32,129 bases of DNA, taken from the IMG/VR virus record IMGVR_UViG_3300045993_000498, positions 1 through 32,129 of that record, one strand, 5' to 3'. Shown here one piece after another: positions 19,526-29,585 of this stretch. The stretch's first letter is position 1; each line of letters begins with the position of its first letter. The translations under genes and the position numbers were made by a program. This DNA comes from a virus. Below the pieces are notes generated by a model. It saw only the letters and a program-made list of their open reading frames with translations. It ran no database searches and was not told where the DNA came from.

Positions 19526-19948
19526 TTATTGACGAGCCTCTTCAAGATAGTTAAGAATTTCAAGTTGCTTGCGGCACCAGTTGTATTTGGTGTCCAATTC
19601 CTTATAGATTTGCCAACCGATGTGGTCATCTTCATCCATGTAGAATTTAGTCGAAACCGTTTCATCATTCAGGAAATAGTCCAGATAGGTACGATATGCA
19701 ATCATGCAGTCATACATATCCTTGCCGTCTAATCCCTTGAGAAGATCTTCCGTATATACACAGTTTGCCGCCCAAGTGTCGTGGTAATTAGTACCTTCAA
19801 CGGTGAGCACACATTCCATCTTCTCAGAAATACCATCAAAGAATCGCTTATGGAGTTCATATGCTACCATAATGAAATCCGAGGAACTTTCGATAACGGC
19901 AGAGTCAATCACTTCTTTAGTAATCGACTTAATTTCTTTCATATTCAT
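19526..19948 (-). CDS. hypothetical protein, 140 aa
   Basis: Acidic, aromatic protein (YHDTWAANCVYTEDLLKGLD; YMDEDDHIGWQIYKELDTKY). Starts MNMKEIKSITKEVIDSAVIE at 19948, overlapping the upstream stop (ATGA). Appears alpha-helical. No family recognised. Confidence 0.7.
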   Translation of the reverse strand: MNMKEIKSITKEVIDSAVIESSSDFIMVAYELHKRFFDGISEKMECVLTVEGTNYHDTWAANCVYTEDLLKGLDGKDMYDCMIAYRTYLDYFLNDETVSTKFYMDEDDHIGWQIYKELDTKYNWCRKQLEILNYLEEARQ

Positions 19949-20358
19949 AGAACATCCACCATCATTTTGTGAGTAATTCGAGGATACAGAGTTGGCAGGT
20001 TCTTTTTCAGAACTGCCTCAAAAACCTTGGCTTCTGGTTCAGACAAAAGTTCCAAGAGATTCTTGGTGTGAAAGTACTTTGTCTTTTTCACAATCTTCGG
20101 ATTGAAGATGATCTCTGTGATGATATTCATAGTGCCTTTGGATAGCAAATATGCACCACAGAGCGACCGATGGAAGTCCGAGAACTTGTACTTGAGATCA
20201 TCAAGATCAAAGTCGATCCATTCCTCATTACATGCGTGATGAATATAGAACCTGACGAGTGGGCTTTCGGCACACACCTGTTTCAGGGCGTCTTCGACAT
20301 TTGACGCGTTAGACACGTTTGTCAAAATTTCGTCAAGTTGAAAATCAGCTACTCGCAT
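19945..20358 (-). CDS. DUF6433-like phage protein, 137 aa
   Basis: The C-terminal LLELLSEPEAKVFEAVLKKN plus LPTLYPRITHKMMVDVL fits DUF6433-type proteins common in T4-like phages, where a two-domain helical protein ends in an L-x-x-x-EA-x-V...Y-x-x-(I/L)T pattern. The ATG shares a base with the RNase H stop. It is the first full gene below the promoter that lies inside rnh. Role unknown. Confidence 0.6.
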   Translation of the reverse strand: MRVADFQLDEILTNVSNASNVEDALKQVCAESPLVRFYIHHACNEEWIDFDLDDLKYKFSDFHRSLCGAYLLSKGTMNIITEIIFNPKIVKKTKYFHTKNLLELLSEPEAKVFEAVLKKNLPTLYPRITHKMMVDVL

Positions 20359-21290
20359 TAGAAAAAATCTCCTATTTTAGAATATAACACGTTCATTTTG
20401 TGGTTCACAAAGAAATTCATCAGTTTCATTTTATCAACTTTGTGACCCTTATGTTCATTATAACACGCGATTGTATTAGTGTAAATTATTTCTGGTGTAT
20501 GTTCGTAAGACACAAGCATTTCATTCCGAGAGTAGTTTCGACGTTCCTCTTCGGTTGCGCAGGCATCGATCGGATTTTTGGCAGCATAGAATGTGGCCAA
20601 ATACTTCTCAGAGATCGGTGGCGCGCGTTTCTTATCGGTTAATGTGAACCAATCATCTGAACATTTGATACTGGGAACACCGTCGCCTGCGTCGCCTCGT
20701 ACGATCTTCTCAATGAGAGCATTTTTTGGCTTGCCTTCTGGTTTCACCAATTTCTTGGTAAGAGGAGACCACTGCTTCACATTCTTAAACCGATGGAGTT
20801 GAAAGTGGTCTTTATCGGAAGAAACAATAAGAATTGGATCGGCCTCAATTTCGCCGAACAGATTTTCTTCTTGATCATCTCGGTTCTGGTCTTTATGTTT
20901 ACACAGAGCACCAATAATGTCATCGGCTTCGGCTTTATCAATGGCGAGAACATTGTAGGGGAAATAGTCCCTCAGTGCTTGCTGAATGTAAGCTGAGGTT
21001 TCAAAAACAAATGCCCAGTCAATCCCTGATGTATCTGTTTCACGTTTTTGTTTGCGTGCCCACTTGTAATATGGAAAGGCATCCTTGCGCCAAGAAGGTG
21101 AGTCAAATGCGACCACAACTTCGGAACCGTAGGTGTTCTTGTGCATCACCTGCTGAGCACGGATGGTATTTAGAACCATGTGCATCATCATATCTCGAGA
21201 TTCGTCCGAGGGATTTTGAGCACATGACTTTGCAGCTGCATCCAAAAAGATAGGTGCTAGGTACACTTGAGAAAAGTCAATTAGTAGCAT
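20358..21290 (-). CDS. rnh: RNase H / 5'-to-3' flap nuclease, T4 Rnh-like
   Basis: Removes RNA primers and 5' flaps during lagging-strand synthesis. FEN-like acidic residues are visible: LLIDFSQVYL at the start, VVVAFDSPSWRKDAFPYYK, DKAEADDIIGAL, ILIVSSDKDHFQL and IVRGDAGDGVPS. KNVKQWSPLTKKLVK matches T4 RNase H. 310 aa, close to the T4 length of 305. An early-type promoter sits inside the last 130 bp of the gene. Confidence 0.95.
   Translation of the reverse strand: MLLIDFSQVYLAPIFLDAAAKSCAQNPSDESRDMMMHMVLNTIRAQQVMHKNTYGSEVVVAFDSPSWRKDAFPYYKWARKQKRETDTSGIDWAFVFETSAYIQQALRDYFPYNVLAIDKAEADDIIGALCKHKDQNRDDQEENLFGEIEADPILIVSSDKDHFQLHRFKNVKQWSPLTKKLVKPEGKPKNALIEKIVRGDAGDGVPSIKCSDDWFTLTDKKRAPPISEKYLATFYAAKNPIDACATEEERRNYSRNEMLVSYEHTPEIIYTNTIACYNEHKGHKVDKMKLMNFFVNHKMNVLYSKIGDFF
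20457..20485 (-). promoter_or_regulatory. sigma70-type promoter inside rnh
   Basis: TTTACA (20480-20485), 17-nt spacer, TATAAT (20457-20462), in the coding sequence of rnh (codons for IYTNTIACYNEH). It would start the DUF6433-gp33-gp59 transcript independently. A weaker TATATT element follows at about 20388-20393. Confidence 0.78.
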
Positions 21291-26969: not shown

Positions 26970-27598
26970 CAGATCTTGCAAAAAGAAATACATCTTCAAT
27001 CTTCGAGGAGATTAAGAAGGACCCAAAGTACAAAGCTGAACGGAGTTCAGATTGGTTCAAATCTAAAATTAAGGATTTGGCTCCTATGGCTCCAGTCGAC
27101 AGGGCAAATCTTATGGCACAAACTAGGGATTCAATGCAGTCCAATAGGCTGCTACCAGGAACTCTTACATTCTTTGCATACGATCCTAAATACAAGGAAA
27201 CCCTACCGTACTACGATAAGTTCCCTCTATCCTTTATTATAGGGATTGACCGATCTGGTTTCACAGGCCTGAACTTCCACTATTTGTCTATCCCAATGCG
27301 GATCAGGCTTTATGATGCAATGTATACTGTGGCAAAGCAGTCAGTGAATAAAACTACACAACAGGTTTTAGTTCTAAACTGGAAACTACTATCTAACTTT
27401 GCTAGGTTCCCAGCTGTGGCTCCAGCAGTAAAGAAATACCTATTTGGTCATGTCCAATCCAAGTTTATAAAAATCCCATTGGAAGATTGGAAAACAGCTA
27501 TACTTCTAGAGAATGCTGAATTTAAAAAGGCATCAGCTTCCGCTGTCATATCTATATCGACTCAAATCGCAGCTAATGCGTTAAAGGGTCGAGAGTAA
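26966..27598 (+). CDS. conserved T4-like phage protein, unknown role, 210 aa
   Basis: The central motif TLTFFAYDPKYKETLPYYDK, then FPLSFIIGIDRSGFTGLNFHYL, is familiar from many T4-like phages, but I cannot name its function. The N-terminus is charged, the C-terminus (SASAVISISTQIAANALKG) helical. The ATG overlaps the gp4 stop, so it belongs to the gp4 late operon and is probably virion-related. In T4 the corresponding place after gp4 holds gp53, which is elsewhere here (30681). Confidence 0.7.
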   Translation: MTDLAKRNTSSIFEEIKKDPKYKAERSSDWFKSKIKDLAPMAPVDRANLMAQTRDSMQSNRLLPGTLTFFAYDPKYKETLPYYDKFPLSFIIGIDRSGFTGLNFHYLSIPMRIRLYDAMYTVAKQSVNKTTQQVLVLNWKLLSNFARFPAVAPAVKKYLFGHVQSKFIKIPLEDWKTAILLENAEFKKASASAVISISTQIAANALKGRE

Positions 27599-27669
27599 AG
27601 TTACCATCGGTAGGTAATATTAGATTCATTCTACGTGGGTCTAAGCAGTGCCAGAGTATTCTACTATAG

Positions 27670-27745
27670 TTGCCTCCTAGGGTTATTAGCTTTAGCTACA
27701 GGGCTGAGGAAACCGAATGCCCTGACACCAAAAGCTTCCTAGCAA
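27670..27745 (-). repeat. nested long hairpin within the candidate RNA
   Basis: Four helices stack inward: TTGC/GCAA (27670-27673 with 27742-27745), CTAGG/CCTAG (27677-27681 with 27738-27742), AGCTTT/AAAGCT (27688-27693 with 27731-27736), CAGGGC/GCCCTG (27699-27704 with 27719-27724). The first two share base 27742, so one of their pairs is exclusive. Small internal loops separate them. It works on either strand. Confidence 0.65.
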
Positions 27746-27752
27746 TAAGTAT

Positions 27753-27760
27753 TATAAATA
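27753..27760 (+). promoter_or_regulatory. perfect T4 late promoter box TATAAATA
   Basis: TATAAATACTTTA, close to the T4 late consensus TATAAATACTATT. It would transcribe rightward, antisense to gp26 and gp54, with no plus-strand gene until 29636. It lies inside a 17-nt palindrome. A second, weaker copy GATAAATACTTA is at 27829-27840. Confidence 0.4.
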
Positions 27761-27929
27761 CTTTAGATGTGAACCTCTTTTAGTAACCCTCCATTGCATT
27801 CCGGGTAGCTAGTCCCTAGCTTATACCTGATAAATACTTATAGGCACAGCTTTAGTATTAGCTTCCAAAGTCCACATGAATAGAATATGGTTCATCGTAG
27901 ATGAACACAACTATCCTTTCTATAGAATA

Positions 27930-27958
27930 ATTATATCACGCAGTTTTGCTGATGTAAA
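27930..27958 (-). promoter_or_regulatory. sigma70-type promoter facing a gene-free region
   Basis: TTTACA (27953-27958), 17-nt spacer, TATAAT (27930-27935): same geometry as the 14 promoters that precede genes, but with no gene downstream. Confidence 0.75.
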
Positions 27959-27990
27959 ATCTTTTTAGCACAGTTAAGTTGTTGATCACA

Positions 27991-28023
27991 AACAGGTTTC
28001 TCATCCTGTTACATTTAGTAACA
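27991..28023 (-). other. two overlapping hairpins after the gp26 frame
   Basis: TGTTAC/GTAACA (28007-28023) and AACAGG/CCTGTT (27991-28010) share four bases and exclude each other. They lie just after the frameshift-product stop. No clear T-run follows, so terminator function is doubtful. Confidence 0.35.
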
Positions 28024-28025
28024 AT

Positions 28026-28906
28026 TTAGAACATATTAGCAAGGGAATGCTTTATATTTTCTTTTTCGATGTCGGCATTTATAAGTGCCATTTCAATATC
28101 TAGTTCCCATCTTGTCATCTGATCAATGCTATCGGAAGAATATCCAAACTTATACCGTAGCATATGCATCGCCTTGAAGTAATCCTCTAGATCGGCATAC
28201 CCAAGGCTTATAGAAAAAAATTCTCGAACCCAGACAAAGTATGTTCGTGTCGCAGTCCACAGTGCTTACAAGTATAGGAAGAATCTACCTTTACCATCGG
28301 CATAGAATCTAAGAACTGCACAATATCCTTTTGCTGCAGTGGAGTCATGGAATTGATGAACTCAATCTTTTCTTCCAATGTAGTTTCAAGAATCTCTTCA
28401 TCGGTATAGATCATGTCAATGCAGCTAGCAACAGTCTCAATACCAGAAGTCGAATCCTCTAGAGTGGCAAAAGACTCAATGAAATTGGACAGAGTTGGGT
28501 GCCGAAGTGAAATTGTATAGACCGTACCAGGAATCTTGATTTTCATGTTCCCGGTAGGCTCTGGTTCAAGCTTGGCTGTAGTAACATCAACTTGGAACTC
28601 AGTCTGAGCACCTTCTTTGCAATCACATTTGCCCACCAGATTAACGATCTCACCTACAGACTTAGATCTGATGTGTAGGAATAGGAATTCCATATCATAG
28701 TACGGATGAGTATCTGGATCTACCGTGCCGTTTGTACAGGCAAATACAGTAGCCTTGAGAGCAGCTGCCACTGTTTCTACATTGTTTTCCTGTAGAGCCA
28801 AAAGAAGAGCCTTTTCTTCTTTCACTGTGAACGGTCTGAAGGTGACTGTTTTCTTGGTCGAAGGCAGTTTAACTGTATAAACTGGCTGAATAATGAGTTG
28901 TTTCAT
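28026..28906 (-). CDS. gp26-gp51-like frameshift fusion, 293 aa (predicted)
   Basis: If ribosomes slip back one base on seven T's (28214-28220), gp26 loses its last residue and continues as SISLGYADLEDYFKAMHMLR through DQMTRWELDIEMALINADIE to a stop at 28026, adding 62 residues. The added frame has no start codon near its beginning and no ribosome site. Its M-T-x-(W/Y)-E-x(5)-M-A-L-I-N-x-D-I-x-K pattern looks like gp51 or the T-part of tail-assembly chaperones. A stem starts 6 nt after the slip site. The alternative is a sequencing error in the homopolymer: one more T would fuse the frames outright. Confidence 0.65.
28171..28220 (-). promoter_or_regulatory. -1 frameshift signal: slippery T7 plus downstream stem
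   Basis: Zero-frame codons AAT TTT TTT CTA TAA present the heptamer T_TTT_TTT (28214-28220). After the 6-nt spacer CTATAA comes GCCTTGGG (28200-28207), which pairs with TTCAAGGC (28171-28178): six Watson-Crick and two G-U pairs around a 21-nt loop. Confidence 0.62.
28208..28906 (-). CDS. 26: baseplate hub assembly protein, T4 gp26-like
   Basis: The zero-frame product is 232 aa, close to T4 gp26 (208). It belongs to the T4 baseplate-hub chaperone family by KTVTFRPFTVKEEKALLLAL near the N-terminus, the middle segment KIPGTVYTISLRHPTLSNF and the C-terminal zinc-type SSYTCKHCGLRHEHTLSGFE. An earlier Cys pair (KCDC) is present. Acts in tail baseplate assembly and is not a major virion part. AAAGAAATATT precedes the ATG at 28906. 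Follows gp54 on the minus strand with a 22-nt gap holding GTTAATTAAC. Confidence 0.83.
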   Translation of the reverse strand: MKQLIIQPVYTVKLPSTKKTVTFRPFTVKEEKALLLALQENNVETVAAALKATVFACTNGTVDPDTHPYYDMEFLFLHIRSKSVGEIVNLVGKCDCKEGAQTEFQVDVTTAKLEPEPTGNMKIKIPGTVYTISLRHPTLSNFIESFATLEDSTSGIETVASCIDMIYTDEEILETTLEEKIEFINSMTPLQQKDIVQFLDSMPMVKVDSSYTCKHCGLRHEHTLSGFENFFL

Positions 28907-28928
28907 AATATTTCTTTCACTTGGTTAA

Positions 28929-29585
28929 TTAACTGCCATCAAACTGAAACTGATCAAACATTTGTTTCAATTCTGCATTTTCTAGAGAGGCACTTTGTTT
29001 ATCTGCTAGCGTCTGATCAGTAATAGATGTGTTGGCAGCGATCGGTCCATTTTCTATAGTTTCAAAAACAAACGACACTGGAAGCGACATAATTCCATTA
29101 CTAGCATAGTCCAGAGATACATTGTTTATGATCTTTGGCACAACTCGTTTGAATGAATATGAATGTTTAACAATGCCTTCCAAATCTATCATGTAGAGAT
29201 TTAATGTTTCTGCCGTATAGGAATCTGGAAAACTTAGATTTCTTCTGTTTTTAGCCATAATCTCGCGCCATTTGTCGAAGAACTTGAATGTTGAGTATTC
29301 TTGATCAACATAGAATTGTAGCATCAAATCTTGGAAGTCGTAATCGTAGACATACTTTCGTTTTATACCAACTTCGAAATAGTTGTCATTCGTCATGAAG
29401 TTGATCATGGGTGTCTGGGCCCCATGGCAGTACAGAGAAAGTTTGTTAGTGTCAAGCTCAGAACTAAATTGCTCTAGATCTGGTGGTAATGTGATAACAG
29501 CAAAGAACAGATATGGTCTTGCTATATTAGCATTTCTAATCTGGGAATTAAAGCTGCTTAGAGGCTGTGGGGAAATATCTGGCAT
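28929..29585 (-). CDS. 54: baseplate tail-tube initiator, T4 gp54-like
   Basis: Has a tail-tube-like fold pattern: SLYCHGAQTPMINFM, then YDYDFQDLMLQFYVDQEYST and FKFFDKWREIM, then SFKRVVPKIINNVSLDYASN and MSLPVSFVFET, as in gp19/gp54 proteins. Its place next to gp48 favours gp54, which sits between baseplate and tube, although at 218 aa it is shorter than T4 gp54 (320). A gp19-like tube paralogue is the alternative. The flexible C-terminal tail (ITDQTLADKQSASLENAELK) is unusual. Transcribed on minus, away from gp48. Confidence 0.62.
   Translation of the reverse strand: MPDISPQPLSSFNSQIRNANIARPYLFFAVITLPPDLEQFSSELDTNKLSLYCHGAQTPMINFMTNDNYFEVGIKRKYVYDYDFQDLMLQFYVDQEYSTFKFFDKWREIMAKNRRNLSFPDSYTAETLNLYMIDLEGIVKHSYSFKRVVPKIINNVSLDYASNGIMSLPVSFVFETIENGPIAANTSITDQTLADKQSASLENAELKQMFDQFQFDGS

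Follow-up and report, generated by a model that had tools for sequence, protein, structure and literature searches.

In the window, by which we denote the whole stretch of viral DNA analysed here (32,129 nt), gp26 very probably encodes the short form of a tail assembly chaperone (TAC-N), and a programmed -1 slip on T_TTT_TTT would add a gp51 domain to give the long form (TAC-NC). Production of gp26 and of a gp26-gp51 fusion from one gene by frameshifting was already proposed in the initial annotation of this DNA, and our comparison of related loci argues for it. The case is real, conserved and functionally coherent, and it is largely anticipated by published work; making a short and a long tail chaperone from one gene by a slip is standard in other phages and has already been reported for T4-like phages.

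The window belongs to a T4-like phage and comes from a 32 kb virus record without a larger genome behind it. Profile searches identified subunits of a type II topoisomerase, SbcC/SbcD-like nuclease subunits, a late sigma factor, head closure and DNA end protector proteins and a baseplate tail tube cap; a gp53-type wedge protein and NAMPT are also encoded. The gene of a frameshifted tail chaperone would be expected between those of the tail tube and the tape measure; here a tail-tube-type gene lies immediately upstream of gp26, a gp2-type gene converges on the other strand, and no tape measure gene follows. The features of the locus are collected in Table 1. The gp2-type gene and the gp26/gp51 frames, which converge, are separated by about 430 bases (27599-28025) with no listed ORF and no Rfam match, the Rfam search of positions 27500-28950 having returned nothing. 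Within this gap, TATAAATA at 27753-27760 (+) resembles a T4 late promoter.

Table 1 Features of the gp26/gp51 locus. Positions are those of the window.
Feature	Positions	Strand	Evidence or remark
Tail-tube-type protein, 218 aa, upstream neighbour of gp26	28929..29585	-	phrog_45 tail tube, E 3e-27
gp26, zero-frame product (TAC-N), 232 aa	28208..28906	-	PF12322, 173.8 bits; phrog_150, E 2e-48
Slippery heptamer T_TTT_TTT, gp26 register	28214..28220	-	Read from sequence; T_TTT_TTN in 98/98 survey loci
Zero-frame stop TAA, one codon past heptamer	28208..28210	-	Read from sequence
-1 frame extension, 62 codons + TAA: gp51 / TAC-C domain	28026..28214	-	phrog_634, E 6.6e-11; dN/dS ~0.10-0.13
Hairpin, 6 nt past heptamer	28171..28207	-	Arms 28207-28198 with 28181-28171; inner pairs 28195-28194 with 28185-28184
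Predicted junction-spanning tryptic peptide, window phage			HEHTLSGFENFFSISLGYADLEDYFK

The PF12322 match of gp26 covers residues 8-231 and its score of 173.8 bits lies well above the Pfam cut-off of 24.5. The 3' end of the gene reads GAG AAT TTT TTT CTA TAA, with exactly seven T at 28220-28214 in the X_XXY_YYZ register of the gp26 frame. After a -1 slip, reading would continue as TCT ATA AGC CTT GGG TAT and onwards to a TAA at 28028-28026, and the predicted fusion has 293 aa (231 + 62 residues) and a mass of about 33 kDa. The first possible start in the -1 frame of the window is the ATG at 28169, 45 nt past the slip, and no ATG, GTG or TTG precedes it. In profile search, residues 3-56 of the 62-residue -1 product match phrog_634 (gp51, 'baseplate hub assembly catalyst') with an E value of 6.6e-11. 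The form of the gp26 end, the 62 open codons without a usable start and the likeness to gp51 had all been described in the initial annotation and are confirmed. The -1 product (28029-28214, -) also gives a weak match, below cut-off, to DUF6760 (PF20546; E 0.0015). This family was found above cut-off in none of seven related records and in none of 14 control genomes, and a literature search on the match found no papers. DUF6760 is a family from contractile injection systems, and the TAC-C relationship may be a wider one.

A slippery heptamer near the end of an ORF is not rare in the window: eight heptamers of slippery type occur in the last 90 nt of the 50 ORFs of at least 100 aa, and three of the eight are followed by at least 62 open -1 codons. 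The case for gp26 consequently rests on conservation and not on the heptamer alone. Despite these similar heptamers near other ORF ends, we rejected a chance occurrence in gp26 on the grounds of the conservation described below. One of the other ORFs, an exonuclease-like one (20358-21290, -), also ends in T_TTT_TTC with 138 open -1 codons; the ORF that follows (19945-20358) starts with an ATG of its own that overlaps this stop, and the arrangement is probably a plain gene overlap.

A tblastn search matched 630 GenBank phage records, most of them from marine cyanophages. The DNA analysed consisted of IMG/VR loci and reference phages; the main survey comprised 98 gp26 loci chosen by gp26 similarity, and 52 representatives with less than 70% identity in gp26 were taken from them. 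Conservation of the T run and of the -1 frame in relatives, which the initial annotation had put forward as a check, was borne out. T_TTT_TTN is present in the same phase in 98 of the 98 loci: TTTTTT always begins on a third codon position, and between the heptamer (T TTT TTN) and the stop of gp26 lie 0-2 codons. An open gp51-like -1 frame of 56-68 codons follows in all of these loci except where one contig ends early. The same site is present in KVP40 and in Cronobacter phage S13, which were examined after the survey. Heptamer, codon phase and open -1 frame are common to Kyanoviridae and several other lineages of the T4 superfamily.

Across the 52 representatives, the X base is T throughout, though the amino acid of its codon varies (N, S, D, A or T). 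The first Phe codon is TTT in every case, as compared with 363 TTT to 212 TTC (37% TTC) for Phe elsewhere in the gene. With the 52 treated as independent, log10 P is about -10.9 for the X base and -10.4 for the first Phe codon, values that shared ancestry makes too small. These two are the only well-filled codon columns of gp26 having an invariant third base, the next best reaching 87%. The invariant bases indicate selection on the nucleotide sequence, beyond Phe-Phe alone. Pairwise NG86 estimates of dN/dS for the -1 frame between the window and loci L002, L003 and L013 were 0.015/0.13, 0.048/0.48 and 0.18/1.37, that is, about 0.10-0.13, and changes are commonest at third positions of the -1 frame. 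By this comparison, the -1 frame is under purifying selection.

Counting against the frameshift, four more distant phages outside the 98 loci carry a -1 gp51-like domain and no intact heptamer: Cygsa01 (L098), Vibrio 1.255.O (L100), Klebsiella phi1_146021 (L101) and Vibrio D528 (L102). At the slip position their degraded heptamers retain only ATTTTC, CTTTTT or CTTTTC, and T still precedes the Phe codon. Expression of the domain in these phages may depend on single-tRNA slippage or, in three of the four, on restart at TAATG.

An alternative reading is that gp51 is a separate small protein with its own start, reached by coupled restart after the gp26 stop or from an internal site, and that no fusion is made. 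We consider this improbable, even though a separate gp51 is annotated in the GenBank records of S-PM2, phiN3 and P-HM2 and, in the window, AAGG precedes the ATGs at 28169 and 28163. A start at 28169 would remove the first conserved helix region of the gp51 domain, and the window and 20 other representatives are without ATG, GTG or TTG in the interval from -30 to +24 nt around the slip. Relatives with an ATG-started gp51 at this place had been named beforehand as evidence against the frameshift, and this is in part what we found: an ATG lies within the same interval in 25 of the 52 representatives, and in some phages separate initiation may contribute product. The heptamer is nonetheless present in 52/52, and an independent gp51 gene would need no T_TTT_TT fixed at synonymous gp26 sites. 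The T4-type gp51, moreover, has a gp26-like part in front, which also speaks against a separate small protein.

Slippage of the RNA polymerase on the T run, with mixed mRNAs yielding an in-frame fusion, is a still less probable explanation. A run of seven T can slip in transcription and such a run is present at the site; most relatives, however, have six T only (TTTTTTC), always in the X_XXY_YYZ phase, and this strict phase is required by tandem tRNA slippage and not by transcript slippage. That a hairpin follows the heptamer also favours slippage in translation. Homopolymer errors are common and the site is a homopolymer, but it is hardly credible that the assembly is in error here, or that a once fused gene was recently broken by a frameshift mutation, given the same arrangement in all 98 loci, complete cultured phage genomes included, and in close contigs from several other metagenomes (seven T and the -1 frame in L002-L005, with 90-91% identical gp26).

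For the programmed -1 frameshift, the hairpin past the heptamer would be the stimulatory element. Of the 8-bp stem first described, the spacer and the pairing of 28207-28201 with 28171-28177 stand, and there are further inner pairs; the eighth pair, 28200-28178, is instead a G-U alternative to the G-C pair 28200-28179 of the minimum free energy (MFE) structure. The 57-nt fold has an MFE of -17.4 kcal/mol and a z score of -2.38, with 6 of 200 shuffles folding as well, and L002, L003 and L013 share its outer stem without change. Covariation in the window's own clade was too sparse to be informative, consisting of one double change in three distinct sequences, which 159 of 500 shuffles reach. Averaged over the 52 representatives, the folding energy reaches its minimum (-8.2 kcal/mol per 50 nt) immediately past the heptamer. 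Not all loci have the hairpin, however: stems differ and some loci have none. With a mean z of only -1.2 over these representatives, a universal stimulatory structure is not supported.

We propose that ribosomes on gp26 would reach AAT TTT TTT and be held there by the downstream hairpin, and that in a fraction of passages both Phe tRNAs would slip back one base on T_TTT_TTT. Most ribosomes would stop one codon later and release TAC-N (gp26, 232 aa), and the remaining ones would read the -1 frame to its stop, giving a TAC-NC of 293 aa with the 62-residue gp51 domain at its C-terminus. We infer that slippage occurs, at some frequency, and that the products act as chaperones. By analogy to lambda G/GT, TAC-N and TAC-NC would together cover the tape measure protein and bring in tube subunits as the tail is assembled. 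Lambda gpG/gpGT reportedly represents a conserved -1 frameshift of tail assembly genes, as Xu, Hendrix and Duda are said to have described in 2004. Common to lambda and the window are a slip near the end of the gene after a tail-tube-type gene and a long form, here predicted, that is minor and has a C-terminal extension. The two differ in the heptamer, G_GGA_AAG in lambda as opposed to T_TTT_TTN here, and in that the window phage is a myophage of the T4 superfamily.

The AlphaFold2 model of gp26 has a mean pLDDT of 89. Its two best matches in the PDB are the HK97 tail assembly chaperone 2ob9 and 3fgx, a Bacillus protein that is uncharacterised. The former ranks first in Foldseek (prob 0.85, E 0.46) and scores a Z of 7.3 over 82 residues; the latter reaches a Z of 7.5. 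Both scores are moderate (Z < 8) and concern the N-terminal part of gp26. A sequence search of solved structures returned nothing credible. The moderate fold matches of the model and the upstream tail-tube-type gene agree with a role as tail assembly chaperone, as given to these proteins in published work.

Tail assembly chaperones of T4-like phages were named by Vladimirov, Gautam and Davidson (2022, Virology 566:9), as cited in PMC10885494 and PMC12846349. In the parts of these two papers that cite that work, poly-T -1 signals are reported in TAC-N genes of T4-like phages (PMC12846349), and some T4-like phages are said to do without frameshifting, carrying one short gene and one longer gene that is fused (PMC10885494). 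The initial annotation had linked T4 hub assembly to the chaperone scheme; the link is supported by the moderate 2ob9 and 3fgx matches and by a T4-type gp51 made of a gp26-like and a gp51 domain, but going by these citations of Vladimirov 2022 it is not new. The window agrees with the T4-like chaperones as cited there in having TAC-N and TAC-NC of one chaperone and a poly-T -1 signal (PMC12846349), whereas its own clade, with T_TTT_TTT and a hairpin, may lie outside the coverage of the 2022 paper. The chaperone locus of Vandenendeviridae and Andersonviridae (phage Adele, PMC12846349) is similar in that the -1 frame is always open after TAC-N, the T-rich slip motif is conserved and the downstream frame is annotated as a separate hypothetical gene; it differs in its motif, GTTTTT.

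The heptamer is absent from Straboviridae phages with a separate full-length gp51 (e11/2, Acj61, KFS-EC, Pm5461 and 44RR), and the gp26 of e11/2 retains Phe-Phe, but as TTC TTT. The gp51 of e11/2 has 249 aa, lies on the strand opposite to gp26 and matches both phrog_150 (residues 3-248) and phrog_634 (147-246). Because of these two matches we read it as a gp26-like domain joined in frame to a gp51 domain, and therefore the frameshift product of the window would correspond to T4-type gp51 and the zero-frame product to gp26. In T4-type phages (e11/2, L093) gp26 is homologous and gp51 holds a gp26-like domain with the same gp51 domain, whereas the genes are separate, on opposite strands and without a heptamer in gp26. 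This offers a clean comparison, within one phage superfamily, of a frameshift-made and a gene-duplicated route to the same two proteins.

A tentative evolutionary reading, which we think possible though rather unlikely, is that the T_TTT_TTN frameshift was ancestral in the T4 superfamily (Kyanoviridae, KVP40-type phages and several proteobacterial lineages). T4 and its close kin would then have exchanged it for a duplicated gp51, fused in frame and encoded on the opposite strand, and in Ackermannviridae-like phages a weaker site or restart would have taken its place. It was noted in 2010 that the gp51 of cyanophages has only about 20% of the usual length and is without the first ~200 residues (PMC3037559). 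The frameshift would account for this 'stub', the ~200 residues that it misses relative to its T4 counterpart being gp26, joined by the slip; the ancestral reading, if true, would explain why cyanophage gp51 seems to miss them.

A chaperone isoform is probably misannotated or unannotated in many genomes of marine cyanophages and KVP40-type phages. The gp51 annotated in P-HM2 (L103, 2274-2366) is a 30-aa ORF starting inside the domain, and the -1 frame runs back from there to the heptamer; in other cyanophage records only gp26 is annotated under the match. GenBank record MG010123.1 (H111), named Staphylococcus phage SAJK-IND, encodes a gp51 that shares 97.6% identity with its counterpart in an E. 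coli T4-like phage, and judging by this identity the record is probably mislabelled or contaminated.
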